Source: an uncultured Nitrospira sp.
GTDB taxonomy: Bacteria; Nitrospirota; Nitrospiria; Nitrospirales; Nitrospiraceae
Direction of reading: 5' to 3'
Assembly (NCBI GenBank): GCA_902500995.1
Contig: CABVSR010000005.1
Location: forward strand, 62,001-126,000
DNA: 64,000 bases
Position numbers and translations under genes: made by a program. Positions within the stretch are counted from its first letter, which is position 1. The number at the start of each line of letters is the position of its first letter. The notes beneath the pieces were generated by a model. The model was not told the DNA's origin, searched no databases, and saw only the letters and a list, made by a program, of their open reading frames with translations. Shown here one piece after another: positions 14,391 through 39,159 of the stretch.

Positions 14391-14402
14391 GGCCGGCTCT
14401 CC

Positions 14403-15569: not shown

Positions 15570-15615
15570 GGTGTACCTGTTGGAAGAATGGCCGTCTTGT
15601 CACTCGCTGTCATGC

Positions 15616-15645: not shown

Positions 15646-15717
15646 TATATGAATGATCAAAATATGGATAATTTATGATTGAAACGTGTCGCATTTTTGA
15701 AGTACGGTATTCCCATC

Positions 15718-16647: not shown

Positions 16648-18360
16648 TTATCCTTCTTTCTTCTCCACCACATCAAACTGCAGCCCACTCGACCCTTCCC
16701 CTCGGCCTGGGCTCTTCCGCCGGCCGATCCAGAGATGCGTCGAGCCGTCGATCCAGCGCGCATATTGGTATGTTCTGGTAACACGCGCGCCTTCGCGGGG
16801 AACTTCCTCTTCGAATAGCAGCAGCTCGCGGTTCGGTTCGAGTAGCCGGCCCTTCGGACGTTGTACGCCTTGAATGCCGCCGTCGCCGAATGCCGGCAGG
16901 ACGCCGCGTTTGAGCCGCAAGGCATTGCCCTCTTTGACCGGCAATAATGGAATCCAATAGTCCGGCACCGTGGTGCCGAGCCGGTAGACCAGAGCGCTGT
17001 CACTGCCGGCGGCGGGTGGGGGCTGCTGTTCCGCCAGCGTCTCTTGATAGGCTTCATGACGATCCAATGGTCGACCGGCGGCGCTTTCAACGATGCGTTC
17101 CACGGCCCAGGCCACGTTGGCCATTTCATCCCTCAAGAGCGACAGGTCTTCCACCGGCTGGCTCTCCAACAGCGGGCCCAACACCGGCGGCAGGAAGAAT
17201 AATTTCTGGGTATCGTTGGTCAGGCTGAACATGCGCCAGGGCGACGTGGGCCCATCCACTTCGCTCGCGTGGGGAATGAGGAACCGTTCGCCGAAGGTGT
17301 TGGTCACGACGAGCGCGCGGACCTGCGACAGGGTGCCCACGGGAAGTTCGAGCGGCAGGAGGAACCAATCGTTGCTGTACTCCAGCGCGAACTTGACGAG
17401 CAACAGGCGGGCCAGGTCCTGCGGCGCGGCTTGGACGCTCGCAAAATTCACCGAGCCGTCTTCGAATTCCCACAAGCGCGCAGAAGGCATGCCGCGAAAC
17501 GAGACCGGCGCGGGAAGAAACGCTTCGGTGAGTGATGTGTGGCTGTCGGTCGCGCCCAAGCCGTTTCCTGTACTCGTCGTGAACGAAAACCAATCCAGCC
17601 GTCCGTCGAGATACTCCGGCGCGGTCAACACCACTTCGCTCGCCGCCGTCTTGCCGGAGACGCTGAGCGCGTACTCCATTCGTTCGGAAATCCAGGCGGA
17701 AGGGGCGGCGCCCTGTTGGAAGAGACTCTCCAGCCAGGTGAGCCAGGACGTAAGAATGCCGAGGAGCTTGGAACGATCCACTTCGGCTATTTGCACGAAC
17801 GGCGGATCGCGGAATAATTCATTTAAGCTGTTGCCGGCCTGTAATGCGCGGACTCGTGCGGCGAACCGCAAGCCGTCGATGGTGCGCCCAGCCAGCACGC
17901 GGATGAACGAGAGGCCGGCATCATCGATCTGCTTGGCCTGCTCTTCTGTGGGTGCGGTCAGGACATACGCGCTCGCCAACCATTGCGCGCGTGAGGGCCC
18001 GAGCCTCGCCGCCTCCAGCAGGCGAAGCAGATGCCGCCCGGATTCGGCAGCCAGCCGCCAGTTCGGGCGCGAGTCGTCCGTCACCGGTTCGGCTTCCACC
18101 ACTGTTTCCAGTGCGAGGTTGTCGGCGGCGTAGGGCCTGGCCGGATGCGGGCCGGAACGTGGCCCCGGTTGATAACGAGTGACGGCGGCCTGGTCCACGA
18201 TCACCTGCGCGGCGGCAGGCGAGCCGGCATCGGCCCCGTTGAACTCGCCGAACTGCCATTGACGACCGAGCATCCAGAGCGGATCGTGGATGCGTGCCTG
18301 CAAGCCGTCTTGCAAATCGGGGTTGTGCGTGCTGAGGTCGAGTCTGATTCGTGAGGCCAT
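16648..18360 (-). CDS. Uncharacterised 570-residue protein, last gene of the DUF6603 cluster
   Basis: I do not recognise a named domain. The protein opens with RIRLDLSTHNPDLQDGL and IHDPLWMLGRQWQFGEFNGA, an unusually ordered, Trp-rich N-terminal block. Later it has FRGMPSARLWEFEDGSVNF, FALEYSNDWFLLPLELPVG and a C-terminal YARWIDGSTHLWIGRRKS segment. It is mixed alpha/beta with no signal peptide or membrane helix. The ATG at 18360 follows a purine-rich GGGAGGGG and lies 2 bp after the stop of the 1,772-residue gene, so the two must be co-transcribed. The precise N-terminal motif suggests a conserved family rather than a random frame. Function is unknown. Confidence 0.75.
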   Translation of the reverse strand: MASRIRLDLSTHNPDLQDGLQARIHDPLWMLGRQWQFGEFNGADAGSPAAAQVIVDQAAVTRYQPGPRSGPHPARPYAADNLALETVVEAEPVTDDSRPNWRLAAESGRHLLRLLEAARLGPSRAQWLASAYVLTAPTEEQAKQIDDAGLSFIRVLAGRTIDGLRFAARVRALQAGNSLNELFRDPPFVQIAEVDRSKLLGILTSWLTWLESLFQQGAAPSAWISERMEYALSVSGKTAASEVVLTAPEYLDGRLDWFSFTTSTGNGLGATDSHTSLTEAFLPAPVSFRGMPSARLWEFEDGSVNFASVQAAPQDLARLLLVKFALEYSNDWFLLPLELPVGTLSQVRALVVTNTFGERFLIPHASEVDGPTSPWRMFSLTNDTQKLFFLPPVLGPLLESQPVEDLSLLRDEMANVAWAVERIVESAAGRPLDRHEAYQETLAEQQPPPAAGSDSALVYRLGTTVPDYWIPLLPVKEGNALRLKRGVLPAFGDGGIQGVQRPKGRLLEPNRELLLFEEEVPREGARVTRTYQYARWIDGSTHLWIGRRKSPGRGEGSSGLQFDVVEKKEG

Positions 18361-18362
18361 GC

Positions 18363-21300
18363 CTATGCCCCTCCCGCCGGATCGATAACGCCGGTGAAGT
18401 CGATGGTGCCGCCGGTAAACAGCAGCGCCGGTGCCGAGGGGTCCTGCTCGCCGGTACCCACCGGTTGCACCGCGCGCTTGCCGGCACGATCCCAGGTGGC
18501 CGTCCCGTCGAACAGGGTGAAGGCCATCCCGTCCACGATGCGTCCTTCCACCCCCACGGTCGTCGCGGGCACGTCGAGGCGCACCCAGCGGCCGGGCGGC
18601 GGCAGCGGGCCCATGTATTGGCGGCTCGCGGTATTGTCCGTCCCCCAGGCAATGAGATTCTCGCCCCAATAGGCGCGATGCTCCCAACTGCCGTCATGCC
18701 ACTGCAACATGACCTGCCGCGGCAGACGCGCGGGATCGAGGTAGATGTGCGCAAACAGCCGGTCGTCCACGCCGACAAACAGCGGGGCCTTAGCGCCTCG
18801 GAAGAAGTGCTGATGCATGCCGGCGGCGACCACCGATTGATGCGCGCGCCTGCCGGACAAGGGTTCCGGTTTCATACGGATCCAGTTCCAGGTTTCGCCG
18901 TCGCCGAAGGGAGCGGCGCCTTCGGGCAGGTCATCCTCCACCCAAATCACTTCATCGCCGCTGTCGGGCGCCACCGTGCGGAGTCTCGCCAAGTCCATCG
19001 TCTCGTGCAGGACGGCTTCCAGGCTGTTGAGGTCCCACGTCGTCCGCCGATCAGCCGGCACGGCGAGCAGCAGCGCCTGCGGGGGCGCGTTGTTGGGCTG
19101 GTCGTAGTGAAAGGTCACCGCGGTCGTCTCTCGGGGGCTGGGCACCGTTTCTACCCATTCGTCGATCATGAGACCGGCGAAGGGTTGATCGAAGCGGAGC
19201 GGTTGTGCCGATGCCATTTGTGCCACGAGCGAGAGGCGCCCGCGCGGAAATGGTGTGTTCGCTGCTTGAGGCAAGGCCACCCAGCGATCCTGCGCCTGGA
19301 AAGGAAGTTGTCCCACGTGAAAACGAAGCGCCGCGCTCCCCACGGTTTCGGCGTAGAGGAGGGCTTCGTTGAGTCGCGCCGCGCCGGGTCTGACGTAGGA
19401 TGCGCGCTGGAACCAAGTCACAGCGGCCAGGGGATCTTGCCCTTGGAGCGAGAGCCCGGCGGCGAATGTTTCAGTTAATTGCGCAGCGTTGGCCGCGGTC
19501 ACGCGGGGTAGCGTCAGAAAGTCCTGGCCGAAGATGATCCGGAGTCGCGCCAGATCATGATCGCGCCGTTCTTCCGGCGTCGCGTTCGCGCGCACAAACT
19601 CCTGCTCGGCTTCGGCCAAGCGGTTCAGACGGCGTTGCGCTTCCAGCAGGACCGAGCGTGCCTGCATCAGGAGCAGCGACCGCGCCTCCGATCCAGTGCC
19701 GCCGAGGTCCAAGGGAACTGCGCTGGGGATGCCGAAGTCCGCTAAGCCGAATAATGCGCGGCGAACCTCGTCGAGATTGGACGTCAGGTCATCGGATGGA
19801 GGCGGCGGCACAAGGCCGTTGAGCCTCCCGTGCACATTGGTCAAGGCCTGCACTGCGCCTGTCGCGCGGCCCGCAAACTCGGCATGGTCCAATCCGGAAT
19901 CGGCCGGTGATTCGGGCAACGACAGGTCCCGTCCGTCGAGCGAGCGGGCATTACTGAGCAGACGCCGGACCGTGGTCGCGACCTCGCACCATTCCATCAC
20001 GCTCACGATATCCGCACCCCACCCATTGTCGCGGCCGAACCGCAGTCGAATGACGGCGTCCGGCGGCACTGTTGCGGGGCGCGTTTGCTGCAGCGCGAAT
20101 CGCCACCGTTGCTCCAATTCCGCCTGCTGTGCCCTGGTGTTGCCCTCGGCCATGTAGACGGCATCCAGCGGCGCCAATCCAAGCGCGGTCAGCGAACTTT
20201 CGACTGTGTGTAGAATGTGTCCGTCTTGTTCGTTGACGTAATCCGCCTTGCAACGGACCTGTGCCGGGTTCGGTAGGAGCGACGCCACCCAGGCATTGAG
20301 AATCGGTTCTGCCTGGGCGCGTGGCGACGGGAGGGTCGTCGGCCAGCCGGCTGGTGCCGTCACTCCGGTCGCCGGGAACAGCGAGCAGAGGCGATGCGTG
20401 AGTCCGGTGCCGCTTCTCGGCGTGCGGATCACTTCCAAGTCCGGCGGCGGCACTTCACCTGCGGCAATAGCATCCAACGTCGCGCCGGAGCGCAGCGGAT
20501 TGCCTTGCACGAGTTGGTAGACGCTTTCGGCCACGACACTGTCTCCCACGGAATCGACGAGATCATCGAGCGCCTTGAGCGCTTCGACCAGCGCCGTGAA
20601 GTCGGCGCTGCCGGGAGCGGGAAATCCCAAGGTGGTGTTGCCGAACGGAATGGTCGTGACATCCCAGGGCGTGTGCGGCGCCTGGCGTTGCTGGCTCGCG
20701 GTCCATCGCCCGTGCAGGGCCAGCCCGTCGACCACGGCGGCGGCCGGCAACGACTTCAGCGCCTCATTCCATTGGGCGGCAAGCCGGGTGGTCAGTGCCG
20801 CTCTGGCGGCGGTGAGATCGGCCATGACCTTTCCCCGTTGCCCGCCTTCTTTCGCAAGGGCCTGGCGGTCCAGTTCGGCGGCGAGTGCATCCTGTCGCAC
20901 TGCCATCTGCTGCGCTGCTGGGATCGATTCGGGATCGGCGGCGTTGAGCAATGTGGCTTGGGCCCGTTCTGCGAGCAGGCGAGAACTCTCCTGGGCGCTG
21001 ACGGTCTGTTGTGCGGCGGCGGCCTGGGCCACGGCGGTGACATGGGCCTGGCTCAGCTGTTCCACGCGGTTGTCCCACTCATCCAAATCCCGCGCTTCTA
21101 ACAGTTGCACGGCAAAACGCCGCACAGAGGGCTGCAACACCTTGCCCTGCGGTTTCGCCGCCTGCTGTTGCGCCAGCACTTGAGCCGCCTGCGTCACCTG
21201 TGTCTGCGCGGCCTGGGCCTGCTGCGCCAGCGTGGAGATGGTGCCGAGCGCGACGCGATAGGTCTGCTCGCGGCGCTCCCGCTCGGCCTTCAATCCGCGG

Positions 21301-23681
21301 GCATCCTCCGCCCGTCGCAGCGCCTGATCACGTTGCGCGGTCAGCAGCGCTACCTCCTGCGCCAACCCTTCGGCGCGCGTGAGCGTGGCCCGGATGTCGG
21401 CAAAGCGGTCGGTGCCGGTGAAACTCGTGAGGGCGCGGAAGCGTTGGATGTAACGGTCGAGCCCGCGCTCGTGGAGATGGCGTTCAAACCGATAGCCGAG
21501 CAGCGAGCTCAAGGACTGACCTTGTCGTACGCCGTCGAGCAGCCACTTGGCGCGATGCACTCGCTCGGATGACAGATCGACCGCAAAGGGTGTGGCGCCG
21601 GGCGCGCGATTGGAGGCCTGCGACAGGTAGCCGCTCCGCAGCACCGCCGCGGCCGCCGCATGACCCAGCGAGGGAGCGTGGACGAATCCCTTGTTCTGGG
21701 CCGAGCGCGAGACCGGTGACGGCACACCGGCCGGTGGCGCGGGCACTGGTTGCAGCGCGGCGGCACGACGGACCTGTTCCACCCAGCCGTAGGCGCCGAG
21801 CCTGACGCCGGTAGGCGCGGCTTGCCGCATGGCTGAGAGCCGCCTGGTGGCGAGCGATGTGCCCCAGGCATCCAGTCGATAGGTGAGCAGATCCACGACC
21901 TCCGCGAGCAACTGCTGCCGAACCGGCTCGGGCAGGGTCGTCAATTCGTCCCAGGCCGGCTCGTGGGGCGTCGAGAGGGCGCGCGTCAGCAGCGACGTCC
22001 GGAAAGCGGGCGTGAGCAGCAGTTGCGGCACTGGTGGTTGTCGGGTGGAGACTTCCGGAAATTCGCGCAACGTATAACGGCAGGCGTTGGCTTCCTGCGC
22101 CAGGAGTACGACGGGGTTGGATTCCACCGTGGTCTGAAGGGACTCCGGGAGTTGCCTGCGACGGGTCAATCGTTGCGCGCGCCACCAGGCTGCCAGTGCC
22201 CGGTCCGGGTCCTGATCGGTCGTCGAAGTCCAGCGGTCGAGTGCCGCCACGGGCAGCAAGCCATAAGGCTGCCGGTCGAGCCGCAAGACCGGTAGCGGCC
22301 CGCGAGCCCGGACGTATTTTGCAAAATGCTCGCGCAGCAGGTCCACTCCGGATGCGCCGATGAGTTGCCGCAAGAGCGGGCTGTCGCACGAGGCGAGCAG
22401 GGCCGCCTGCATGAGCGCAGTCCGATGTTGTTCCGATCCTCCGGCTCCGCGGATATGCGCAAAGACGGATTGCGGCAAGCCCAGCGCCTGCGCCAGCAAA
22501 TCGCCGTCGGATCCGGGGCGAATCAACGAGACACCCAGTTCGACGGCCATGCTCGCCGCAGCATCGCGGTCGCTCGATCGATAGCCGGCAGGACTGTCGG
22601 CGCTGTTGTTCGTCGGCACCAGTTGTTCGACGAGGGCGAGGCCGCCGGTGTAATGGTGGGCATCGAACAGGTGGACCAATCGGCCGGCTGTGGTAGGCGC
22701 GTCCCATGACGCTTTGAGCCCCAGCACCACGATCCGGTCGAATCCGGCCCGGGCGTCTTCCTCTTTGATGGGAATACGTAGACCCATGCCGATGGATTCT
22801 GCCACGTCGAAATCCGTGATCCAGCGGATGCCTTCATCGACGGGCGGCATCCCATTGTCACCGAGGGGCCCGGCGCTGCGCGGATCGGGCCCGACCGCGA
22901 CTGTCTCAGGGATCGGCTTGCCCCAGGCGGTAATAGAGGCCGCCTCGCCACGATAGCCGATGGCGACCCAGCGATCGGGCAGCATCTGCGTGTGCGGCGC
23001 GCGGGTCCAGCTGTCGTTGCGACGCGTGACCGTTCCCGCTTGGGCGGGATCAAGCAGGTGAGCGATCCAGGCGGCGCGCGCCCTGTCGAATTGTTCCGTG
23101 AGCCGTTGCCAGCCTTGTCTGATATGTTCCTGCCGCTCAGACCCGGCAGGGGCGGCTGCGACATGGGCCCAGAATTCCTTACCGCGGCGTTCCTCTTCCT
23201 CCGTGAGCGCCGGTTCGTGGCTGTCGAGATGAATGTCGTCGGGGTAGACGCGAAGCAGAAGGTCAGTGCCCGGTCCCGTGCGCCTCGCCGCAAACCTGGT
23301 TTCGACTCGCACGGGAAACAGCAGCAACGGATGCGTGGTGGCGACGGTGCCGCTGAGCCGATCGGTGCCCAGCAGGCGGGCGGTCGCGGCATCGCGGGCT
23401 GCTCGATGGTCATCGACCTGTGCCGACAACGCGGCGACTTCCGCCCGCTTGCGGGTCACGGCCTCTTGCGTGGCCGTGATCTGCGCGTTGACCTGGCCTA
23501 ACTCGGCCTGGAAGAGCGCCCGCTGCCGGATGAGCATGGCGGCTCGCCGTTGCGCCGCCTGCGCCCGTGCCACGACCCGGTCATGTGCCGCCTGTAATTG
23601 CCGGAGCTTGGTGGCCCAGGCTCGCATGACGGCCGGAGGCACCCGTTCAGGAATGTCTGATCCTTCAGTGATCGGTCTCAC
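18363..23681 (-). CDS. Giant uncharacterised protein, 1,772 residues, with coiled coils
   Basis: There is no recognised catalytic domain. Residues about 20-105 form an Ala/Arg/Gln-rich coiled coil. A conserved-looking block follows (HPLLLFPVRVETRFA, LLRVYPDDIHLDSHEPALTE). A middle section holds VDLSSERVHRAKWLLDGVRQ and LLGYRFERHLHERGLDRYI. A second long coiled coil (about 800-960) and a C-terminal beta-rich region (about 1,640-1,772) with HRAYWGENLIAWGTDNTA complete it. No signal peptide is seen. The start is a GTG with AAGGA about 9 bases upstream. It sits 13 bp after the coiled-coil gene and 2 bp before the next gene. The size and two coils suggest a structural scaffold; this is inference only. 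Confidence 0.75.
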   Translation of the reverse strand: MRPITEGSDIPERVPPAVMRAWATKLRQLQAAHDRVVARAQAAQRRAAMLIRQRALFQAELGQVNAQITATQEAVTRKRAEVAALSAQVDDHRAARDAATARLLGTDRLSGTVATTHPLLLFPVRVETRFAARRTGPGTDLLLRVYPDDIHLDSHEPALTEEEERRGKEFWAHVAAAPAGSERQEHIRQGWQRLTEQFDRARAAWIAHLLDPAQAGTVTRRNDSWTRAPHTQMLPDRWVAIGYRGEAASITAWGKPIPETVAVGPDPRSAGPLGDNGMPPVDEGIRWITDFDVAESIGMGLRIPIKEEDARAGFDRIVVLGLKASWDAPTTAGRLVHLFDAHHYTGGLALVEQLVPTNNSADSPAGYRSSDRDAAASMAVELGVSLIRPGSDGDLLAQALGLPQSVFAHIRGAGGSEQHRTALMQAALLASCDSPLLRQLIGASGVDLLREHFAKYVRARGPLPVLRLDRQPYGLLPVAALDRWTSTTDQDPDRALAAWWRAQRLTRRRQLPESLQTTVESNPVVLLAQEANACRYTLREFPEVSTRQPPVPQLLLTPAFRTSLLTRALSTPHEPAWDELTTLPEPVRQQLLAEVVDLLTYRLDAWGTSLATRRLSAMRQAAPTGVRLGAYGWVEQVRRAAALQPVPAPPAGVPSPVSRSAQNKGFVHAPSLGHAAAAAVLRSGYLSQASNRAPGATPFAVDLSSERVHRAKWLLDGVRQGQSLSSLLGYRFERHLHERGLDRYIQRFRALTSFTGTDRFADIRATLTRAEGLAQEVALLTAQRDQALRRAEDARGLKAERERREQTYRVALGTISTLAQQAQAAQTQVTQAAQVLAQQQAAKPQGKVLQPSVRRFAVQLLEARDLDEWDNRVEQLSQAHVTAVAQAAAAQQTVSAQESSRLLAERAQATLLNAADPESIPAAQQMAVRQDALAAELDRQALAKEGGQRGKVMADLTAARAALTTRLAAQWNEALKSLPAAAVVDGLALHGRWTASQQRQAPHTPWDVTTIPFGNTTLGFPAPGSADFTALVEALKALDDLVDSVGDSVVAESVYQLVQGNPLRSGATLDAIAAGEVPPPDLEVIRTPRSGTGLTHRLCSLFPATGVTAPAGWPTTLPSPRAQAEPILNAWVASLLPNPAQVRCKADYVNEQDGHILHTVESSLTALGLAPLDAVYMAEGNTRAQQAELEQRWRFALQQTRPATVPPDAVIRLRFGRDNGWGADIVSVMEWCEVATTVRRLLSNARSLDGRDLSLPESPADSGLDHAEFAGRATGAVQALTNVHGRLNGLVPPPPSDDLTSNLDEVRRALFGLADFGIPSAVPLDLGGTGSEARSLLLMQARSVLLEAQRRLNRLAEAEQEFVRANATPEERRDHDLARLRIIFGQDFLTLPRVTAANAAQLTETFAAGLSLQGQDPLAAVTWFQRASYVRPGAARLNEALLYAETVGSAALRFHVGQLPFQAQDRWVALPQAANTPFPRGRLSLVAQMASAQPLRFDQPFAGLMIDEWVETVPSPRETTAVTFHYDQPNNAPPQALLLAVPADRRTTWDLNSLEAVLHETMDLARLRTVAPDSGDEVIWVEDDLPEGAAPFGDGETWNWIRMKPEPLSGRRAHQSVVAAGMHQHFFRGAKAPLFVGVDDRLFAHIYLDPARLPRQVMLQWHDGSWEHRAYWGENLIAWGTDNTASRQYMGPLPPPGRWVRLDVPATTVGVEGRIVDGMAFTLFDGTATWDRAGKRAVQPVGTGEQDPSAPALLFTGGTIDFTGVIDPAGGA

Positions 23682-23694
23682 TGGGTTGGTCCTT

Positions 23695-24513: not shown

Positions 24514-24533
24514 GGTGTCGTCTCTCTCCGCCG

Positions 24534-27155: not shown

Positions 27156-27174
27156 GGCGTTTCATTCCTCTTGA

Positions 27175-30100
27175 TTACGTCGTGACCACTCTGTTCCCCC
27201 GCCGGCGTTTGCGGGCGGGGGCCTGACCGGCGGCGCCGAAGGGGGCGACCCGGGCCAGCACCGCCGCCGAGAGCACATAGCCCGGCCGGGGCCGCTCCGG
27301 CGGCCGCGTCGGATCGAGCAGCAGGGTCTCATAGGCAATCGGCGCGGTGAGTCCCGCCTCGTCCTCTACCGCGAGCTCCTCGGCCGCCACCGTGAGGCCG
27401 CCGTCCAAGGGCGCAAAGGCCGGCTGCGCCAACTGCTCGTCCTCGCGCAGCTCTTCGAATTGCGCCAGGGCGAAGGGTTCCTGGACCGGCGTCGTCCGCC
27501 AGGGGGAGGTCCCGGCGCGATCCGTCACCGTGACCCGTACCGTCGTCGGCCCGCCGAGAATCGGCGCGGTGCCCAGCTTGGTGATCTGCCGGTTCAAGGG
27601 CGCAATGCGCTCCCGCACGGTCAGCTCCGCCCAGGGATGGACGCGCAAGTCGTTCGGGGGCGGCGATGTCTCGCGGAGCGTCACCACCGGGCTCTGGCTC
27701 CGGGGCACCGTGCCGCTCCAATTGCGCCGGTCGGCCAAGGCGGCGGCGATCGCGCCCACCACATCCACGGCTGCCGGGAGCGGCGGTGCGGTCTTGCTGC
27801 CGAACGTTCGCGCGAAGCGCACCGACACCGAGAAGAACAACAGCGAGATGGAGGCCTTGCCCTCCACATGCCAGGGCGTCGGGCCGGCCAGCCGGCCCTT
27901 AAATGAGATGCCCATCAACAGGCGGCCGTGATACCGGAGCGCTAAGGCGGCGCCGAGTTCCACCTCAAAGGCCAAGGGGGTTAATTGAATCAGCGCATCG
28001 AAGCCGAGCATGCCGTCGAAGCTGAAGCCGCCGCCCGCCGCATGCAGATCCACCCGGGCGCCGAACTGCACCGTATTCGACGTGACCGCCAGATAGGTCT
28101 GGCACCGTAACTGGAGCGAATCGCCATCGGCCAGTTGCAAGGCCAACCGCTTCAAGGCCGGCAGCCCCGGCGGCGGCGCAAAGCGGGGATGGAAGCCGCC
28201 GAGGGCGAGCACAAATTGCGGCTGCCGCCCCCAGCCGGCGCGGAGGGCCATATCGCCCGTGAGGGTGAACTGCAGGATCTTGGAATCATAGAGCGTGGCA
28301 TCGAGCGACACCGTCTCGGCGCTGACATCCAGCACCCCCAGCGCATCCATGCGGATCTGAATCAATGGATGGGTCTGATTGGGCAAGAGCACTTGCAGCC
28401 GGCCGAGCACGATGACCCGAATAGGACTAGGCAGTTCGACGAGCAGGGCGAGATCGAGCGTGAGCAGGGTCGGGGTGCCCCAGCGCAGTTGCACCATCGG
28501 ACCCACCACGTGGCGGCCGGCCGCCGGCGGAAACACCCGGCGCAGGTCACTGAAGATCTGCGGGGCATTGCGGAGTGGATCGGGGGGAAACAACACCGAG
28601 TTGAGGGTGCCGGTCTTGAGCCCGTCGCGCAGTACGTCGGTGCGGACGGTGCGGTGCAAGGCCACTAGGCCACCGATGCCCGTCAACGTGAAGCCCAAAC
28701 CGATGGGAATGGGCGTGAAGCCTTCGGCGGTGAGCAAAATCACGAGGGAGTAGCCACGGCTGCCGTCGGGCAGTCTGGTGGTGAGCAGGCCTAGCGCCTT
28801 GATGGCCACCGTCTCGGCCAGTTCCACCTGCAACATGCCGGAGTATTCGGCACGCTGGGGATCGAAGCCCAGGAAGCCGCCGCCGGTGACGCCCGGCGTC
28901 GCGATCGCCAGCCCGAGGCCGGTGGGCGGTTTGAAGTCGAGGGACAGATCGAGTGGTCCCACATTTCCGCCGTTCGGAGGGAACCGCAGGGTTGCAGCGA
29001 ATCCCACCTGATCGATGGTGCTGGTGACCGGGCCCAGTTTTACGGCGGCGCTGGTGGCGGCCAGGATGTCGATTCCTTGGCCTTCGCCGCTCGATGCACG
29101 GACCGCGAGCCGCAGCAGCTGGATGGAAATCGCATTCAGGAGCGTGACGTGCAGCGGCAGGGTCGCTTCGAATCCCACTCCCCCTTGCAGCGAGAGTCCG
29201 TGACGGAACGACCAGGCACCGGCCAGAGCGAAGGGAACGGTCAGGCCATTTTTCGGGAGCACCTGCGCGAGAAACCCATCGGCTTTAGAGACATCAATCA
29301 CCACCTGGCCCCGTTCCACGCTGAAGGCAATCGCCGGGTCGACGACGGCACGAGCAGGCGCGGCCGAGTCGACATGCAGGTTCAGTTTCACGGAGGACTG
29401 AAGTCCCTCCAGAGTCAGGCGAGAGCCTTCTGCCGAGCCGATCAGAACAAAGGGTTCTGAGCCGGTCTTGCGAGCGAACTGAGCTCCCACGGTCACGTCC
29501 ATCGCCGTTCCGGCCGGCAGCTGAAAGTCGAGATCCATGGGTGGACGAATGGAGGCGGTCAGATCACTGCTGATGCGGGCGACCGTGTCAAACGTCACCT
29601 GCCACGCACCCTCTGTGATGGTGTCGCTGCGTTCGATCGAGGTCGGCGCGCGCAAGCTGACGTCCAACCCGGGGGGCGAGAACGCCGGATGCACTTCCGC
29701 GTTGAAGCCGAAGGCTTCCAACAGCGCCGGCTCACCGGCCGGGCGCAGGATCTCGGCGGGAATGCCGAATTTATCATTCAACAGTCTCTGCAACATCGTG
29801 AACAGGGTCAGCCCGTTGAACGAGGGCGTACCCCAGCCATAGACATCACGCAGCAGTCCCGCCGGGTCGGTGAACAGCTTGAGCAAGCGGTTGAGATGCA
29901 GGGTCTTGTGGACATAGGGACCTTGGAGCGATCCGTCAGGAAGGCCCGGTTCGTCTACGACTTCGATGACGCCTGTGCCGAGCAACAGGAGCGCGATCTG
30001 AGGGAATCGGACTTCGAGGTACTCGGCCACAAGGCGGTGAAGGAGCCGTTCCGGAAAGGCGCGGGCGAAGGCGGCGAGTTCCGTCTTCTGTTGAGGCGAA

Positions 30101-30456: not shown

Positions 30457-32891
30457 GGATGCGACAGGGCTCGTGATTCAACCTGGGCCATGGCAGTCTC
30501 CGTCAAGAGCATGGCCATGATCGATCGGTATCGTTCAAGACTCGCGCGCAATCTCGGGCTGCCCTGCAGGGCCAGCAGGGTGAAACAACGGTCGAGATAT
30601 CGAGAGGCAGATTCTCCGTCAATCGGCACGGGGCTTCGTTCGGCATGTCCTCCGTACAGGAGCTGCCGCAGCAGCGCCGGGCCTGCCGCGCGGTGCCACA
30701 TCGTCGCGATGCGCCGGTTGCTGTTGATCAACCGGCGGACTTCGCTGAAGTGCCGGCTGATCGCGGCGGCGATGTGTTCGCCTTCCGGATAGCCCTTGAG
30801 CCGCCAGCGGAGCTGTTGCAGCCATGACGTCAACGGCGCGGAATGTCCGGTGAAGGCCGAAGCCTTGGACTCGCGCTGTAGCGGGCCATCTAAACCTGAT
30901 GGTGGATAGATGCGAGGCACGCCGCCGCCGCCACCCCCACCGCCACCTCCGCCGGCTGCTGCGCGAACGGCGTCGATGGCCGCTTGAATATTCAGTTTGC
31001 CTCCTCCCCAGGTGGCATCCCATCCGCCGGCCGGTCGCTCGCGTGCCGTCGCCTGCAAGTGGCGGACAATCTCGGCTCTCGTCAGCCGGGGATTTTCTTC
31101 CAGGAGCAACGCGATCGCACCCGCCACGTGGGGCGCGGCCATACTGGTGCCGGTCAGATCTTCATAGAGACAGCAACAGGCGTCGGGGCAGCAGTCGCAG
31201 CAGCGGCCGCGCAAGTTGGCGGCATCGGCCTTGGCGGACGTGATTTCCAACCCCGGCGCCGCGATGTCGGGCTTGCGGTTCGTGGCGGCGCCTCTTGCGA
31301 CGGGGCCACGGCTGGAGGAGGAGACGATGCCGGTCGAGGGCCAGCAATCGCAGCGGCTCGTGCGCGACGCGTGGTTGGCAACCGTGATGACTTGCGATGC
31401 CGTGCCGGGAATGCTGAGTGTCGCGTCGAGGCTGGCGCGCACCTTCGCGTCGGCGGGAGTCGTCGGCGGCAAGAACCAGGGCGTGTTGGTGCCGCGATCG
31501 ATCCAGCAATGAACATTGACATCCCCGGCGTTCGGATTGGCGAGCGTCAGCTTCCAGAGGCCGTTGAGGATAGGCGCGCGCCGGGGACGCGCGATGGTGA
31601 TGCGGAAATTATTGTCCCGGTCGTGTTCGCCATTGATGGTGCCGTCGATCGACACGCGCGTTTGCCGGTTGGCGGCGGCTGCGGGATTGGCGATAAAAGG
31701 CGGCGCGGCGGCATTGGCCGGCAGGTCGGTGCCATGGTTGACGGCGCCGCTCGCGGCTCCCCCTGGCGCGGTGACGGTCAGGTTCAGTGTGCCGGCACGG
31801 TCGTACCAGAGGTCGAGCAAGGTTTCGCTCTGGCGATCCTTGGGCATCTCGAATTCGATCTCCAGATTGCCGTTGCCCGGCACGCGGCCCTGCACGTGGC
31901 GCAACATGCCGCCTTCGTTGCCGGAGGATTTGACCACGATCTGCGGATGGTGCAGGAAGTCGCCGGTCTCCACATGGGCGTCGATCGCCAGCTCCACGGC
32001 GTTCGTGCCGTCATGAGGTCCCAGGTTGTCGCCCTGACTGATGTTGATGACTTTCGGTTTGTCGATGCTGCCGAGAAAGGAGAAGATGAAATCGATCGCT
32101 TCGAGCAAGCGTTGGTTTTCTCCGATCGCGTTGTCGTTGGTGTAGTCGTAACGCACGACGATGAGTTCAGCCTCCGGTGCCACCCCGACATAGGTCTGGC
32201 TGCCATGGCAGCAGGTGGCAGGTTTGCCGTTGCCCGCTGCGATGCCTGCGACGTGGGTGCCATGGCCTTCCCGTTTGTTGCTGGCATCGACATCCTTGGT
32301 GCGCACCGTGGCTTGTCCTTTGAGCGCCCGGGTGAGCTGGTCCTGGTTGTAGACCACGCCGATATTGTTGGGGCCTCTGGTATCGCCGGCGCGGAAGCGC
32401 AACATTTGATCCCAGATCGCGAGGATCCTCGAGTTGCCGTTCTCATCGACGAAGGAGCCGTGCCGCCAGTCGATGCCGCTGTCGATGATTCCGACGACGA
32501 CGCCCTTTCCCTTGCGCGAGCGGGCGCCTGTATGCACGGCGGTCGCGCGGATTTCCGGCAAACTGAAGTTGAGCTCCGGATGCATCCGGCGAGGCCCTTC
32601 CACGGTCGTGACGTGAGGGATCGCTGCGAGATCGTCGAGCCGGTCGATGGCGATGGTGCCGGTGGCGATGCTGTAGCCCTTGCGGGGATGGCGGACGAGC
32701 GTGCGCCGGACGAAGCCGGTTGAGGTTAGATCCTCCACATTCCCGGTGAATCCGACGATGACGCCCACCTGATCACTCTTCGTGTCAGCCTTGGCGCGGG
32801 AGCGAGATTTCGGCGCGGCCGCGGCTGCGTCACCGGGGGCCTGCCTGGCACGGAGTTTCGCCCGCAATCCGGGATCAAGTTTTTTATTCAT
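30453..32891 (-). CDS. Subtilisin-like (S8) serine protease with Cys-rich insert
   Basis: The 812-residue protein has an intact S8 triad: Asp near 135 (VVVGIIDSGID), His near 211 (GHGTHVAGIAAGNG) and Ser near 582 (DLTGTSMAAPHVAG). A beta-rich insert of about 250 residues separates His from Ser. Just before the Ser motif lies a dense cysteine cluster (GRCCDCCPDACCCLYED). Near residue 650 a poly-Gly run links to a helical C-terminal domain of about 140 residues. The N-terminus is basic with no signal peptide, although a prodomain-like region (40-110) is present. ATG 32891 follows GAGGA. It lies between the two DUF6603 genes, 10 bp from one and overlapping the other by 4 bp. Confidence 0.88.
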   Translation of the reverse strand: MNKKLDPGLRAKLRARQAPGDAAAAAPKSRSRAKADTKSDQVGVIVGFTGNVEDLTSTGFVRRTLVRHPRKGYSIATGTIAIDRLDDLAAIPHVTTVEGPRRMHPELNFSLPEIRATAVHTGARSRKGKGVVVGIIDSGIDWRHGSFVDENGNSRILAIWDQMLRFRAGDTRGPNNIGVVYNQDQLTRALKGQATVRTKDVDASNKREGHGTHVAGIAAGNGKPATCCHGSQTYVGVAPEAELIVVRYDYTNDNAIGENQRLLEAIDFIFSFLGSIDKPKVINISQGDNLGPHDGTNAVELAIDAHVETGDFLHHPQIVVKSSGNEGGMLRHVQGRVPGNGNLEIEFEMPKDRQSETLLDLWYDRAGTLNLTVTAPGGAASGAVNHGTDLPANAAAPPFIANPAAAANRQTRVSIDGTINGEHDRDNNFRITIARPRRAPILNGLWKLTLANPNAGDVNVHCWIDRGTNTPWFLPPTTPADAKVRASLDATLSIPGTASQVITVANHASRTSRCDCWPSTGIVSSSSRGPVARGAATNRKPDIAAPGLEITSAKADAANLRGRCCDCCPDACCCLYEDLTGTSMAAPHVAGAIALLLEENPRLTRAEIVRHLQATARERPAGGWDATWGGGKLNIQAAIDAVRAAAGGGGGGGGGGGVPRIYPPSGLDGPLQRESKASAFTGHSAPLTSWLQQLRWRLKGYPEGEHIAAAISRHFSEVRRLINSNRRIATMWHRAAGPALLRQLLYGGHAERSPVPIDGESASRYLDRCFTLLALQGSPRLRASLERYRSIMAMLLTETAMAQVESRALSHP

Positions 32892-32901
32892 GGGGCTGTC
32901 C

Positions 32902-35900
32902 TCATGACTGGCCGACCAAGTCGGCGGTGCGTGCCCGCCGGCGTTTGCGGGCGGGGGCCTGACCGGCGGCGCCGAAGGGGGCGACCCGGGCCAGCACCGC
33001 CGCCGAGAGCACATAGCCCGGCCGGGGCCGCTCCGGCGGCCGCGTCGGATCGAGCAGCAGGGTCTCATAGGCAATCGGCGCGGTGAGTCCCGCCTCGTCC
33101 TCTACCGCGAGCTCCTCGGCCGCCACCGTGAGGCCGCCGTCCAAGGGCGCAAAGGCCGGCTGCGCCAACTGCTCGTCCTCGCGCAGCTCTTCGAATTGCG
33201 CCAGGGCGAAGGGTTCCTGGACCGGCGTCGTCCGCCAGGGGGAGGTCCCGGCGCGATCCGTCACCGTGACCCGTACCGTCGTCGGCCCGCCGAGAATCGG
33301 CGCGGTGCCCAGCTTGGTGATCTGCCGGTTCAAGGGCGCAATGCGCTCCCGCACGGTCAGCTCCGCCCAGGGATGGACGCGCAAGTCGTTCGGGGGCGGC
33401 GATGTCTCGCGGAGCGTCACCACCGGGCTCTGGCTCCGGGGCACCGTGCCGCTCCAATTGCGCCGGTCGGCCAAGGCGGCGGCGATCGCGCCCACCACAT
33501 CCACGGCTGCCGGGAGCGGCGGTGCGGTCTTGCTGCCGAACGTTCGCGCGAAGCGCACCGACACCGAGAAGAACAACAGCGAGATGGAGGCCTTGCCCTC
33601 CACATGCCAGGGCGTCGGGCCGGCCAGCCGGCCCTTAAATGAGATGCCCATCAACAGGCGGCCGTGATACCGGAGCGCTAAGGCGGCGCCGAGTTCCACC
33701 TCAAAGGCCAAGGGGGTTAATTGAATCAGCGCATCGAAGCCGAGCATGCCGTCGAAGCTGAAGCCGCCGCCCGCCGCATGCAGATCCACCCGGGCGCCGA
33801 ACTGCACCGTATTCGACGTGACCGCCAGATAGGTCTGGCACCGTAACTGGAGCGAATCGCCATCGGCCAGTTGCAAGGCCAACCGCTTCAAGGCCGGCAG
33901 CCCCGGCGGCGGCGCAAAGCGGGGATGGAAGCCGCCGAGGGCGAGCACAAATTGCGGCTGCCGCCCCCAGCCGGCGCGGAGGGCCATATCGCCCGTGAGG
34001 GTGAACTGCAGGATCTTGGAATCATAGAGCGTGGCATCGAGCGACACCGTCTCGGCGCTGACATCCAGCACCCCCAGCGCATCCATGCGGATCTGAATCA
34101 ATGGATGGGTCTGATTGGGCAAGAGCACTTGCAGCCGGCCGAGCACGATGACCCGAATAGGACTAGGCAGTTCGACGAGCAGGGCGAGATCGAGCGTGAG
34201 CAGGGTCGGGGTGCCCCAGCGCAGTTGCACCATCGGACCCACCACGTGGCGGCCGGCCGCCGGCGGAAACACCCGGCGCAGGTCACTGAAGATCTGCGGG
34301 GCATTGCGGAGTGGATCGGGGGGAAACAACACCGAGTTGAGGGTGCCGGTCTTGAGCCCGTCGCGCAGTACGTCGGTGCGGACGGTGCGGTGCAAGGCCA
34401 CTAGGCCACCGATGCCCGTCAACGTGAAGCCCAAACCGATGGGAATGGGCGTGAAGCCTTCGGCGGTGAGCAAAATCACGAGGGAGTAGCCACGGCTGCC
34501 GTCGGGCAGTCTGGTGGTGAGCAGGCCTAGCGCCTTGATGGCCACCGTCTCGGCCAGTTCCACCTGCAACATGCCGGAGTATTCGGCACGCTGGGGATCG
34601 AAGCCCAGGAAGCCGCCGCCGGTCACGCCCGGCGTGGTAATCGCCAGGCCGAGACCGGTGGGTGGCTTGAAACGCGGCGACAGGCCAAAGAGGCCGAGGT
34701 TGCCTTCGTGAAACGAGAGGGCGACCGTGACGCCGATCCGTTCGATGGTCGCGGTGACGGGGCCGAGTACGACACGCCCGGTCAGGCTGGTTTCTGTGTC
34801 GATGCCCTCTTCGCCCACGTCGATGCCGATGTGGGCTGCATCCAACTTCACGGGGCCGCCGGCCCGCTGCAACGAGAGCGATACGTGAAGTCCCCCGCTG
34901 CCGGAGAACGAGAGTCCGGTCTTGCTGCTCCAGTGCAGGGTGAGGTCGAACGGAGCCTGGACGGACTCTCGTCCCATCGTCCCTTGAATGAAGCCGTCGG
35001 CTCCCGCGAGCGAGAGGTCGAACCGCAACCCCACAAGCGCGAGTTCCACGAATGCGTCCCTGTTGGTCGCGGAGGATACATCGAGCCCGCCTGCGACGCT
35101 GAACTGTTGATACTGCAGGGCCGACCCGCCCGGCAAACGCACCAGCGGTTTGGCTGTGCCGGTCGGCTGACCGTGCCGCAATCCCAAGGTGAAGCGACCG
35201 GTGAGGGCGTCGCTGAGCCCCGCGCCTTTGCGCAACGTGAAGTCCTGGCCCGGCCGGAGGATCAGCGCCAGCCGTTTGAGGACGTCCACGTTGCCGGACC
35301 ATTCAATGCGGGTATCCTCCAGCCGTGAAAAAGGCACGCTGCCTTCCGCGCGGCCTTGGATGATGGGCGCCGCGCCCAGGCCGGCGTCGCTCGCGCCAGG
35401 CGACGTGGGGGCGGCACCGAAGAGTGAGAGGCCCAGGCGCGCGCCGAACGAGGTTCCACGTTCCTCATGCAGGAAGGTGATGAGTTGCGGCGGAGGATCG
35501 GCTCTGGCTTCGGTTCGTCCCAGCCAGGCTTCCTCCGCCTGCGGGCTGAGCGGCTGGATGCGGCTCCGCAGGCCGAGCGTCTGCAGCAGTTGGCTCAGTC
35601 TGGTGAGGAAGGTCATCGATTGGAAGTCGGGCGTATGCCAGCCGTAGGCCTCGGTCATCAGTTCGTCCGGCTTCGTGACCGCCACTTTGAAGAGGTGATA
35701 GTTCACCGTCGCGCGGACATGTTCGACCTGGAACTTCGTCGGATCGGCGGCGTAGTACGGATAGTCGATGATGTTGAGCAGATGCAGGGCGGCGTAACTG
35801 AGCGGCGAAGCCTGCGCCAGGAAATTGGCTACCAGGAAATCGAAGAGCCGTCTCGGGAGTTCCTTGTGGATTTGCGTGCGATCGACGTAGTCGCCGAAGG

Positions 35901-36228
35901 AGGCCAGCTTGGCGGGCAAGGTCACGGCCAGGTCGTGGATGCGGCGGACGAGCGCTTCGATCGCCAGCGCGAGGTCGGCGATGCGGCCGGCCATGGCCAG
36001 ATCATCGTGCCATTCGGCATCGGACGCGCTGAGCACCGCGTCGAGCTTCGAGAGGAAATCGCCGATGTCGAGAGTCGCCAGCCCGATGTCGTCGATGCCG
36101 GGCGGCAGGTCCCAGCCCAAGAGGTTCAAGAACGCGCGCGCTTCCTCCACATTTCCGTGGATGAGGTCGAGGTGCGCCAGCAGGCGCCCGACCCCGGCGG
36201 TGGCGTTCTGAACTAGATGATCGGCCAT
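32902..36228 (-). CDS. DUF6603-domain giant protein 2 (1,108 residues)
   Basis: This is a paralogue of the 1,093-residue protein. From about residue 536 to 1,098 it is identical, being encoded by the shared repeat; the N-terminal half is clearly different. That half starts with a helical region (1-200: VGRLLAHLDLIHGNVEEARA) and continues with Gly-rich beta strands. The identical part includes the GGFHPRFAPPPGLPALKRLA motif. There is no signal peptide or membrane helix. The last residues (RRRARTADLVGQS) lie outside the repeat and differ from the paralogue. It overlaps the PLD gene by 16 bp and ends 10 bp before the protease start. Confidence 0.8.
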   Translation of the reverse strand: MADHLVQNATAGVGRLLAHLDLIHGNVEEARAFLNLLGWDLPPGIDDIGLATLDIGDFLSKLDAVLSASDAEWHDDLAMAGRIADLALAIEALVRRIHDLAVTLPAKLASFGDYVDRTQIHKELPRRLFDFLVANFLAQASPLSYAALHLLNIIDYPYYAADPTKFQVEHVRATVNYHLFKVAVTKPDELMTEAYGWHTPDFQSMTFLTRLSQLLQTLGLRSRIQPLSPQAEEAWLGRTEARADPPPQLITFLHEERGTSFGARLGLSLFGAAPTSPGASDAGLGAAPIIQGRAEGSVPFSRLEDTRIEWSGNVDVLKRLALILRPGQDFTLRKGAGLSDALTGRFTLGLRHGQPTGTAKPLVRLPGGSALQYQQFSVAGGLDVSSATNRDAFVELALVGLRFDLSLAGADGFIQGTMGRESVQAPFDLTLHWSSKTGLSFSGSGGLHVSLSLQRAGGPVKLDAAHIGIDVGEEGIDTETSLTGRVVLGPVTATIERIGVTVALSFHEGNLGLFGLSPRFKPPTGLGLAITTPGVTGGGFLGFDPQRAEYSGMLQVELAETVAIKALGLLTTRLPDGSRGYSLVILLTAEGFTPIPIGLGFTLTGIGGLVALHRTVRTDVLRDGLKTGTLNSVLFPPDPLRNAPQIFSDLRRVFPPAAGRHVVGPMVQLRWGTPTLLTLDLALLVELPSPIRVIVLGRLQVLLPNQTHPLIQIRMDALGVLDVSAETVSLDATLYDSKILQFTLTGDMALRAGWGRQPQFVLALGGFHPRFAPPPGLPALKRLALQLADGDSLQLRCQTYLAVTSNTVQFGARVDLHAAGGGFSFDGMLGFDALIQLTPLAFEVELGAALALRYHGRLLMGISFKGRLAGPTPWHVEGKASISLLFFSVSVRFARTFGSKTAPPLPAAVDVVGAIAAALADRRNWSGTVPRSQSPVVTLRETSPPPNDLRVHPWAELTVRERIAPLNRQITKLGTAPILGGPTTVRVTVTDRAGTSPWRTTPVQEPFALAQFEELREDEQLAQPAFAPLDGGLTVAAEELAVEDEAGLTAPIAYETLLLDPTRPPERPRPGYVLSAAVLARVAPFGAAGQAPARKRRRARTADLVGQS
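32934..34623. repeat. Long exact direct repeat, copy 2 (DUF6603 C-terminal region)
   Basis: This is the second copy of the 1,690-bp segment at 27198-28887. The first mismatch on the right is at 34624 (c against g), after which the two copies differ at several positions per 50 bp. On the left identity begins at 32934. Recombination between the copies would delete 5,736 bp, including the protease gene, and leave a single hybrid DUF6603 gene. Confidence 0.9.
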
Positions 36229-38468
36229 GGGAGCAGACTCTTTTTGTCGTCGACCTTGCAGGAGCCGAAGTCGAACTTCTGTGCCTTATTGCGCAACGTG
36301 GAGGTGCGAATCTTGAGCGCGGCTAAGTATTCCTTCGAGTCGGTTTCCGGCTTCCAGGGCAACAGATGCGGCGCCTGGTCGGCCGGCGGAGGCAGGTCGT
36401 TCTTGATCGCATCCACATGATGGGTGGCGGCCGCTTCCCACTCGGCGACCCAGGTCAGGGGGGCCGGCTCCGCGGGCATGGTCTTGAGGTGGTCGGGGAG
36501 CGCGGCCAGCCCGAGATGTTCCCGCCAGAGGGCGTCGCGTAACGCACGGACGGTGCCGTTTTCCGGCAGACCTTCGATGCCGCTGTAGAGCACCAGGTTG
36601 AGTTCGACGCTCCGCGACGGCTGGCGCGAGCGGTTGGGAACGGCATGGCGGGCGGTCCGCGTGTAGATGTCCCGTACAAGTTGGGGAATGTCGGCCACAT
36701 CGCCGAGCGTTTCCCGGATGGTCTCCAGCGTCTCCTTGAAATCGAAGATCAGCTTGTAGGCGACGAACAACAAGATGAGGAGCGTCTTCAGGTCGAAGAG
36801 GATTTGTTTGAACACGAAGAAGAACAGATACCAGAACAGTTCCCAGAGAAATTTTCCGGGATCGTTGGTGAGCTTCGCTTTTTGGATCGCGCGGTCGAGG
36901 ATCGAGCCGGTGATGATCAGGCCGATCTCGTGGTAGTTCATCGAGGTGCCGTCGAGGTTCGCGCTGCCGACGGTCGCCCAGACGTCGTCGATGATGGCCA
37001 CCTTGCTGTGCACGTACACCGGCATCACGTCGTACCGCCGCGGATTGCCACCGCCGCTGCCCGGCTTTTCCGAGCGACTCCAGAGCGTGTAGACGCCCAG
37101 GTGATGCCCGCCTGCGGTGGCGGCGCTGCGGAGCTGGTTGACGTTGTCGATCTGTCGATCGGGATAGCCGGGCAAGTCGGGGCGGAGATTCAAGACCAGG
37201 ATGATCTGCAAGCGCGGCTTGGCCTGGTCTTTCATCCTCGCGATCAACGCATCGACGATTTCGGGAGACGTGAAGTATTGGTTCTCGATGTAGATGTAGC
37301 GCCGGGCATTGGCGATGGCTCGTTCATAGGCTTCGAGGATGCCGGTTTCGCCATGGGGCAGGTCTTCATCGCTCGGGTGCACCCGTTTGATCGACCCCCC
37401 CGGCAGGGTGCGCAGAACTTGTACCGAAGCGACGTCGCCGTCGGGTGTGACGGGCAGATCGGGAAAGGTTTTCGGCGGAGGGATGAGCATCGGCTTGCCG
37501 GTGGCGTTCCAGATACTCGCAAAGGTCTTCTCGACGTGGGCGACCGCCGGGCCGCTGAGGTCCGTGTTGACGTCGTGCATGAGCGAGCCCTTGTGGCGCG
37601 CATCCCGGATCGCGTGGCGGGTATCACTGAAGTAAAACTGTTTCAGCGGCGATCCCATGAGGATGGCGCGGCGGCCGTCCACCACGAGGGCCTTGGCATG
37701 CAGCAGGGCGAAACCCTTGTTGAAGGCGTTGGTACTGACCCCCGGCGTCTGCGCGAAAAACTCCGCCACTTCGGTGACAGTATCTTCGGCAGAAAGCGGC
37801 ACGTTCGTGACCAGCACATTGACCGGCTTGCCGCCCTTGTTTTTGAGCACCTCCTCCAACGAGGTTTCCGCCGACTGTTTGCAGCCGGTGGAGGGGGGAT
37901 TGAGCGGATCGAAGCTGCTTTTGAATTTGGAGAGGAAGCCGTTGTTGACGTCGAAAAAGAGCGTCATCAGATTGATGGATTCCGTGGCGCCGGCTGCGGC
38001 ATCGGTCACCTCGGGAAACATCTTGGCGCCGTCGATCAGGTGCGTAATCCGATTGTGATGAAAGAGGGCGACCGGTGTGCCGACCGCCGGGTTCAACGTC
38101 GTGTGGGTGACGAGCCATCCTTCGATGTTCTTGCGGTGGATGGTGATGGTGCCGACCTCGTGGTTCGAGTCGGTGACATCTTTGGCTTCTTTGGTTTCGT
38201 GCAGCAGGCGCGTGCCGAACAGTTTCGGGTCTGCGTGGGAAGGCCCGAGCACTTGCACGACGAGGTCGGGATTCCGGTCGGCCTTCCACGTGCGGTAGGC
38301 ATCCGGCGCGTAGGAGATGAGAAACGTGCCGTCGCCCTCGGTCTTCACGGCCCCTAGCACGTCGTCTTCGTTGAAGAAGGGATCGAAATCCAGCGCGCGG
38401 ATCGTCAAACCTGCAATGCCGGCGCCCTGTTCATCGATGATACGCCCGTGAATGCTGGTGTTGGCCAT
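36213..38468 (-). CDS. Phospholipase D-like protein with N-terminal beta-sandwich and membrane-seeking insert
   Basis: The 751-residue protein has two HKD motifs: HAKALVVDGRRAILMGSP (about 257) and HSKVAIIDDVWATVGSANLD (about 487), so the PLD active site looks complete. An N-terminal carboxypeptidase-regulatory-like domain (SIHGRIIDEQGAGIAGLTIR) precedes it. Residues about 535-575 form a very hydrophobic, aromatic double segment that could insert in a membrane. The C-terminal 150 residues are unassigned. PLD-fold enzymes hydrolyse phosphodiesters of lipids or nucleic acids. It is the first gene of the cluster and overlaps the next gene by 16 bp. No signal peptide is seen. Confidence 0.85.
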   Translation of the reverse strand: MANTSIHGRIIDEQGAGIAGLTIRALDFDPFFNEDDVLGAVKTEGDGTFLISYAPDAYRTWKADRNPDLVVQVLGPSHADPKLFGTRLLHETKEAKDVTDSNHEVGTITIHRKNIEGWLVTHTTLNPAVGTPVALFHHNRITHLIDGAKMFPEVTDAAAGATESINLMTLFFDVNNGFLSKFKSSFDPLNPPSTGCKQSAETSLEEVLKNKGGKPVNVLVTNVPLSAEDTVTEVAEFFAQTPGVSTNAFNKGFALLHAKALVVDGRRAILMGSPLKQFYFSDTRHAIRDARHKGSLMHDVNTDLSGPAVAHVEKTFASIWNATGKPMLIPPPKTFPDLPVTPDGDVASVQVLRTLPGGSIKRVHPSDEDLPHGETGILEAYERAIANARRYIYIENQYFTSPEIVDALIARMKDQAKPRLQIILVLNLRPDLPGYPDRQIDNVNQLRSAATAGGHHLGVYTLWSRSEKPGSGGGNPRRYDVMPVYVHSKVAIIDDVWATVGSANLDGTSMNYHEIGLIITGSILDRAIQKAKLTNDPGKFLWELFWYLFFFVFKQILFDLKTLLILLFVAYKLIFDFKETLETIRETLGDVADIPQLVRDIYTRTARHAVPNRSRQPSRSVELNLVLYSGIEGLPENGTVRALRDALWREHLGLAALPDHLKTMPAEPAPLTWVAEWEAAATHHVDAIKNDLPPPADQAPHLLPWKPETDSKEYLAALKIRTSTLRNKAQKFDFGSCKVDDKKSLLPWPII

Positions 38469-38685: not shown

Positions 38686-39159
38686 TCATTCGACGCGCGG
38701 CATGCCGTAACCTTGCGCCCAAGCCAACTCCACGACTCGCTGAGTCGATTGCGATTCCGGCAGTTGTTGGTCGAAGAGCTGCGGATAGGAGTCCGTCATG
38801 ACCGTTTGAAAATGGGGCCACCGGTCTGCGGAGACACCAGTCAGGCTGGCCAACGAGGCGAGATACTCTCCCTGGCCCCGCGCGATATCGGTGCGCAGAT
38901 TGTCATGAGTTTGCATGGCGAAGAAGGTGGCCCGTCGTTTGGCTTTGAGGAGACGGCCATCCGCCGACGCGCCCGGTGTCGTGCTCGATGTGAATTCGGT
39001 CGTGGGATCTAGGAATTCCTGCGTCGCGCCGGACGTGCCTCCGGTGAGGTCGGTCGTGGCGTCGAACGGCGCCTTCGTCAATTCGACGGTCGCGTCCGTC
39101 ATACATCCGGCGAGGGTCAGGAGCAAACCGGGAATCAGTGCAACGCGTGTGGTCATCAT
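38686..39159 (-). CDS. Lipoprotein, DUF3015-like
   Basis: The 157-residue product has a lipoprotein signal with lipobox LTLAGC (Cys at about 19). A Thr/Ser-rich spacer (FTSSTTPGASADG) leads to a helical domain with DNLRTDIARGQGEYLASLAS. That motif is what I associate with DUF3015-type proteins. The function of the family is unknown and the protein would sit in the envelope. A strong AGGAGG site precedes tandem ATGs at 39159 and 39156. It lies upstream of the PLD cluster on the same strand, but a 217-bp gap suggests separate transcription. Confidence 0.65.
   Translation of the reverse strand: MMTTRVALIPGLLLTLAGCMTDATVELTKAPFDATTDLTGGTSGATQEFLDPTTEFTSSTTPGASADGRLLKAKRRATFFAMQTHDNLRTDIARGQGEYLASLASLTGVSADRWPHFQTVMTDSYPQLFDQQLPESQSTQRVVELAWAQGYGMPRVE

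Follow-up and report, generated by a model that had tools for sequence, protein, structure and literature searches.

A fixed-order gene module of DUF6603 and three unnamed protein families with an exchangeable enzyme slot, in an uncultured Nitrospira sp. and across bacterial phyla and haloarchaea

Do eight closely packed genes for large and mostly unnamed proteins in an uncultured Nitrospira sp. belong to one unit, and what would such a unit do? The genes occupy positions 16648 to 38468 on the minus strand of a 64,000-nucleotide stretch of contig CABVSR010000005.1 (the window) and are separated by gaps of 2 to 20 bp or overlap by 4 and 16 bp. They encode a PLD-superfamily protein and an S8 subtilase-like protease, each followed by a DUF6603 protein (DUF6603a and DUF6603b), and then P873, a coiled-coil protein, P1772, and P570. 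An earlier note on this DNA, made from the letters alone, had taken the eight as one operon; their presence, identities, and spacing were all confirmed. We found that four of the encoded families constitute a module of fixed gene order that recurs in unrelated phyla, preceded by a slot in which different enzymes are exchanged.

A recurrent module and its enzyme slot

The module consists of one or more enzyme genes followed by DUF6603, P873, P1772, and P570, in that order, and occurs on chromosomes and plasmids. A profile scan of GTDB genomes confirmed at least 519 relatives of P570, and the 79 P570 loci retained come from Nitrospirota, Acidobacteriota, Verrucomicrobiota, Bacillota, Goldiibacteriota, Chloroflexota, Cyanobacteriota, Pseudomonadota, Actinomycetota, Bacteroidota, and haloarchaea; the module order was found in at least 10 bacterial phyla and the haloarchaea. 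All four core genes stand in order on one strand in 62 of 108 P570 loci, the last three in a further 24, and the last two in 18, the partial cases being mostly those in which the fetched stretch ended before the upstream genes. Median intergenic gaps within the core of these 108 loci are 9, 9, and 3 bp. Because the gene order recurs in more than 60 loci across phyla, the operon is not a product of chance. The earlier note had regarded co-occurrence in the same order in unrelated phyla as the mark of a functional unit, and scattered homologues, or large frames without any, as evidence against one; homologues of all large frames were found with their order kept, and DUF6603 was present in 30 of 30 diverse P570 genomes tested.

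The loci nearest to that of the window are in Nitrospira genomes, including the complete chromosome of "Candidatus Nitrospira defluvii"; other Nitrospira show the last genes in unchanged order but vary in the genes ahead of DUF6603, with the position of the window PLD gene conserved. The spread is patchy (16 of 199 Streptomyces genomes, 9 of 201 from the family of Variovorax, and 5 of 194 Halobacteria) and includes plasmid copies in Streptomyces, Salinigranum, and Rhizobium, the last with short genes between DUF6603 and P570 that are consistent with split P873 and P1772. A phage origin was rejected, as searches of IMG/VR viral contigs for P570 relatives and of phage records for DUF6603 both came back empty.

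The slot is the gene directly ahead of DUF6603, frequently with a 4-bp overlap. In about half of the loci it is filled by one family with a weak match to PhoD, the commonest occupant, and elsewhere by PLD, S8, M64, Amidase_2, Het-C, beta-lactamase-like, DUF4056, DUF2515, or ferritin-like proteins or by proteins of no assignable family; one Streptomyces locus carries two S8-like genes. The earlier note had treated the PLD protein and the protease as fixed partners, a view that has to be replaced by that of an exchangeable slot in which each enzyme is accompanied by its own DUF6603 of matching N terminus. The PhoD-like, PLD, S8, and M64 slot enzymes retain the active-site motifs of their families in nearly all members checked (DDHE and GDQIY, HKD, HGTHVA and GTSMA, and HExxH, respectively). 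The PhoD-like slot proteins differ from the known family in being long (mostly 786 to 1084 amino acids [aa], some about 1500), in matching Pfam weakly, and in having, with one exception, no export signal. A docking domain common to the slot enzymes was rejected: profile comparison revealed no domain common to different enzyme families or to an enzyme family and the core proteins (best probability, 1.3%), and recognition therefore plausibly resides in the N-terminal part of the cognate DUF6603.

In one Nitrospiraceae genome (L045:18563-18880 and L046), an amidase-DUF6603 pair is followed only by a P873 fragment, with a complete PhoD-DUF6603-scaffold set nearby, and the pair is likely the remnant of a duplication. 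A DUF6603 gene of Leptolyngbya PCC 7375 (L180) has no scaffold genes in the fetched stretch and is perhaps an orphan enzyme-adaptor island. A contig labeled Gemmatimonadetes (L076) is 87% identical to the Nitrospira locus, and the label is probably a binning error.

DUF6603 as a two-part protein

For comparison, DUF6603 was split into the N-terminal ~430 residues (N part) and a core (residues 530 to 1010). Between the two copies of the window, identity is 23% in the N part and 100% in the core, with 1,690 bp of identical DNA that the earlier note overlooked; for the PLD-paired and M64-paired copies of N. defluvii, the values are 24% and 100%. Between the M64-paired copies of N. defluvii and genome G001, which are different species, identity is 61% in the N part and 46% in the core; between the PLD-paired copy of G303 and the PhoD-paired copy of the related species G244, it is 18% and 91%. 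Across 39 loci, N-part similarity tracked enzyme similarity with core similarity allowed for (partial Mantel, 0.38; 0 of 2,000 permutations), and core similarity showed no association with that of the enzyme. Across 23 loci, core similarity tracked P570 (rho, 0.47; 0 of 1,000) and P1772, and the N part tracked neither P873, P1772, nor P570. The natural reading of these sequence comparisons is that the N part would recognize its own enzyme and that the core would have to fit the scaffold of its own genome.

Paralogous cores are identical within four genomes over stretches of about 1,650 to 2,100 bp (broken once, briefly, in N. defluvii), whereas between species DUF6603 cores differ by at least 17% of their DNA. 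The simplest cause of the identity within genomes is repeated gene conversion. An assembly artifact is unlikely: of the four genomes, two consist of a single contig, and another is that of N. defluvii, whose chromosome is complete.

AlphaFold2 models cover DUF6603 and P570. That of DUF6603 (mean predicted local distance difference test [pLDDT] score, 68; core mostly 80 to 95) consists of a helical N terminus and about 30 long antiparallel strands, and the predicted sheet has one hydrophobic face (odd-even difference, 2.96 versus 1.19 ± 0.16 for shuffled sequences). The earlier note had envisaged a multiprotein assembly of enzymes with beta-rich proteins, to which this amphipathic sheet of about 30 strands lends support. 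Among solved folds, porin and ApoB sheets come nearest (Z, 12 to 14.5; root mean square deviation [rmsd], mostly 12 to 19 Å). The core resembles ApoB/LptD-type and porin sheets in its long antiparallel strands and single hydrophobic face but differs from them in the rmsd, in an identity of only 7 to 10%, in the absence of a signal peptide, and in the inclusion of hosts without an outer membrane; as modeled, it shares only topology and amphipathicity with them. DUF6603 does not fit the outer-membrane beta-barrel proteins, which have a Sec signal peptide: a signal-like segment was found in none of 97 proteins, and the family is present in Bacillota and haloarchaea. In the fold comparison itself, the rmsd was above 11 Å in most rows. 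The P570 model (pLDDT, 80) had a best Z of 3.6 in the PDB fold search and no match with an E value below 0.001 among viral structures, and a PDB sequence search with profiles of the four core families returned nothing credible.

Transmembrane or signal-like segments were found in none of 97 DUF6603, 97 P1772, and 94 P570 proteins; in P873 a transmembrane-like segment occurs in 3 of 87, only inside a rare middle insert. In some species P570 carries PA14 and F5/8C inserts after residue ~66 to 70, P873 of some relatives carries LamG, FG-GAP, or transmembrane inserts at one site near residue 533, and haloarchaeal module proteins are annotated with BGTF and lamin-tail domains (LamG was assigned by eye from sequence, the other insert domains from Pfam or record annotations). 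The lack of export signals, together with inserts of extracellular type in the scaffold proteins, suggests that the module proteins are assembled within the cell and act on surfaces.

The operon in the Nitrospira window

The features of the operon are given in Table 1. Named families were matched among the eight proteins only for PLD, S8, and DUF6603, weak coiled-coil hits being uninformative, and P873, P1772, and P570, three of the four core families, have no relative in Pfam, NCBIfam, PHROG, or the PDB (sequence search). DUF6603 matched PF20248 with 437 bits (gathering cutoff, 27) over profile positions 2 to 501 of 502. The PLD protein has two HxK(x)4D motifs (HAKALVVD at 257 and HSKVAIID at 487), and the translation of the protease contains all three motifs of the S8 triad (DSGIDW, HGTHVA, and GTSMA), so that the earlier note was right to describe two enzymes with intact catalytic motifs. 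Further observations of that note also held: none of the eight proteins has a transmembrane or signal-like segment, and no sheath, tube, baseplate, or ATPase gene was matched in the cluster proteins. DUF6603a overlaps the PLD gene by 16 bp, and DUF6603b overlaps the S8 gene by 4 bp. The protease start at 33074 in the list of open reading frames (ORFs) is too early; starting from the ATG at 32891, which is preceded by GAGGA, the protein has 812 aa.

Table 1. Features of the eight-gene operon, with positions in the window
Feature	Position	Strand	Evidence and remarks
PLD-superfamily protein, enzyme slot 1, 751 aa	36213-38468	minus	Pfam PLDc_2, E 9.5e-15; two HKD motifs
DUF6603a, 1108 aa	32902-36228	minus	Pfam DUF6603, E 8e-131; N-terminal ~430 aa, putative PLD adaptor; C-terminal predicted amphipathic beta-sheet core
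S8 subtilase-like protease, enzyme slot 2, 812 aa	30453-32891	minus	Pfam Peptidase_S8, E 8.8e-40
DUF6603b, 1093 aa	27175-30456	minus	Pfam DUF6603, E ~1e-130; N-terminal part, putative S8 adaptor, unlike that of DUF6603a; core same as DUF6603a core
Homogenized core block, DUF6603a	32934-34623	minus	Exact match to 27198-28887
Homogenized core block, DUF6603b	27198-28887	minus	Exact match to 32934-34623
P873, putative core scaffold, 873 aa	24534-27155	minus	No match to any known family; hot spot for inserted domains near residue 533
Coiled-coil protein, ~272 aa	23695-24513	minus	ORF and start; Nitrospira clade only
P1772, putative core scaffold, 1772 aa	18363-23681	minus	No known family; homologues across phyla
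P570, putative core scaffold, 570 aa	16648-18360	minus	Last module gene; no known fold match

The coiled-coil gene is absent from module loci of phyla outside the Nitrospira clade, and promoter and terminator scans near the cluster ends gave no convincing site. Downstream, the cluster is adjoined by genes for an AcrB/HlyD-type RND efflux pump and a divergent MarR regulator (11217-16209), which lie outside the module in other species. A DUF3015 gene upstream (38686-39159) is also found near the M64 version of the module in another Nitrospira (L043:6381-6857).

Proposed function and rival explanations

We favor, with moderate confidence, a modular complex, assembled in the cytoplasm, whose task would be to bring exchangeable hydrolases to a target, either a surface or a membrane. 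Its invariant scaffold would consist of P873, P1772, and P570, and DUF6603 would be the coupling subunit, with an enzyme-specific N-terminal part that recognizes one enzyme and an amphipathic core that fits onto the scaffold of the same genome, binds lipid, or does both. The inserted or appended PA14, F5/8C, LamG, FG-GAP, BGTF, and lamin-tail domains may aim the complex at cell-surface sugars or proteins, and in Nitrospira two enzyme-adaptor pairs (PLD and S8) would share one scaffold. Membrane direction of the assembly, suggested in the earlier note, is compatible with such an arrangement. The modular architecture is well supported; we infer a physical complex and its antagonistic or degradative delivery after release by lysis or through an exporter. 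The more specific proposal, a phage-tail-independent enzyme-delivery machine of bacteria and archaea in which DUF6603 adaptors plug hydrolases into a giant scaffold bearing surface-binding modules, is put forward tentatively, as a real possibility that falls short of being probable. Several observations weigh against the favored complex. The genes conserved with the module include no exporter, no lysis gene, and no immunity gene, so that delivery to the outside stays hypothetical, and slot enzymes without signal peptides could work within the producer. The N-terminal part of DUF6603 was modeled with low confidence, the Mantel tests remove relatedness only partly, certain slot genes could be placed in no family, and gene calling may have failed for a few upstream ORFs of GC-rich genomes.

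Work within the producer is the essence of an intracellular lipid-processing machine, in which the slot enzymes would remodel phospholipid and the DUF6603 sheet would attach to a membrane or lipid particle. The suitability of PhoD-like, PLD, and Het-C enzymes for phosphoester or lipid substrates, the lack of signal peptides, and the amphipathic core with its topological likeness to porins and ApoB100 (Z, 13.7, but with an rmsd of 18.9 Å over 350 residues) are consistent with such a machine; we consider it unlikely, however, since proteases, a peptidoglycan amidase, and beta-lactamase-like enzymes fill the same slot and the inserted domains (PA14, F5/8C, LamG, and FG-GAP) belong typically to extracellular proteins. 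Proteases and amidase in the slot also argue against a surface complex for nutrient scavenging, chiefly of phosphate, with the PhoD-like phosphatase as the original enzyme. Although this phosphatase is the commonest occupant, in haloarchaea and on Streptomyces plasmids as well, known PhoD is exported by the twin-arginine translocation (Tat) system, a Tat-like motif occurs in only 1 of 51 slot proteins, and known scavenging enzymes do not need a giant scaffold, which makes this explanation rather improbable. An anti-phage defense island with nuclease-like PLD and protease effectors would fit the patchy spread, the plasmid copies, and the weak resemblance of the PLD domain to DrmC and of S8 to a PADLOC subtilase model. 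It is highly doubtful, as DUF6603, P873, P1772, and P570 match no model of PADLOC, NCBIfam, or PHROG, no sensor ATPase is present, and the inserts are of surface type.

Least probable by a little is a role in extracellular contractile injection systems (eCIS), either as an accessory or as a cargo system. The tube gene gp19 is present in 22 of 30 P570 genomes and, within Nitrospirota, in 24 of 28 P1772 genomes versus 29 of 268 others, but no association was found in Streptomyces (12 of 16 versus 120 of 183) or in the family of Variovorax (3 of 9 versus 36 of 192; pooled odds ratio for the two, 1.8; p = 0.32), gp19 is missing in 8 of the 30 genomes, and the clusters are usually unlinked. The partnership was rejected because the association vanishes within these lineages, and the co-occurrence is treated as a matter of common ecology or ancestry. 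The genome of the window (G000) has a gp19-type tube gene, which marks contractile injection systems, on a contig other than that of the cluster (C10:106645-107073).

The proposed carrier can be set beside known systems. In the type VI secretion system (T6SS), VgrG and PAAR proteins with effector-specific adaptors bring together a shared core and interchangeable extensions, each matched to its cognate, by which various toxic enzymes are carried. The module is alike in its common core and swappable, cognate-matched parts for different enzymes; in contrast to the T6SS, the cluster has no VgrG, PAAR, sheath, tube, baseplate, or ATPase, and the module is found also in Gram-positive bacteria and archaea. 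The eCIS are assembled in the cytoplasm without signal peptides, are spread patchily over bacteria and archaea, and have environmental hosts (PMC8213781), features that the module shares, but the module is without any phage-tail gene and shows no association with eCIS within lineages. The Pfam entry for DUF6603 (PF20248), of which the window holds two members (E ~1e-130), covers one domain only, and neither the enzyme-matched N part nor the fixed four-gene module is described there. A literature search, in which a positive control with another DUF worked, found no paper on DUF6603, PF20248, or the system, with preprints and most subscription journals outside its coverage. No name or structure for the system came to light either, and an earlier description may exist outside this coverage.

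Conserved multigene systems that extend over so many phyla and yet are nameless are few. If the proposed function is true, the module would represent a class of modular effector carriers that is new, has no phage-tail ancestry, and occurs in Gram-negative bacteria, Gram-positive bacteria, and archaea. Roles would then be assigned to DUF6603 and to three families outside Pfam, and the enzyme-adaptor grammar could be used to discover many new hydrolases and toxins.

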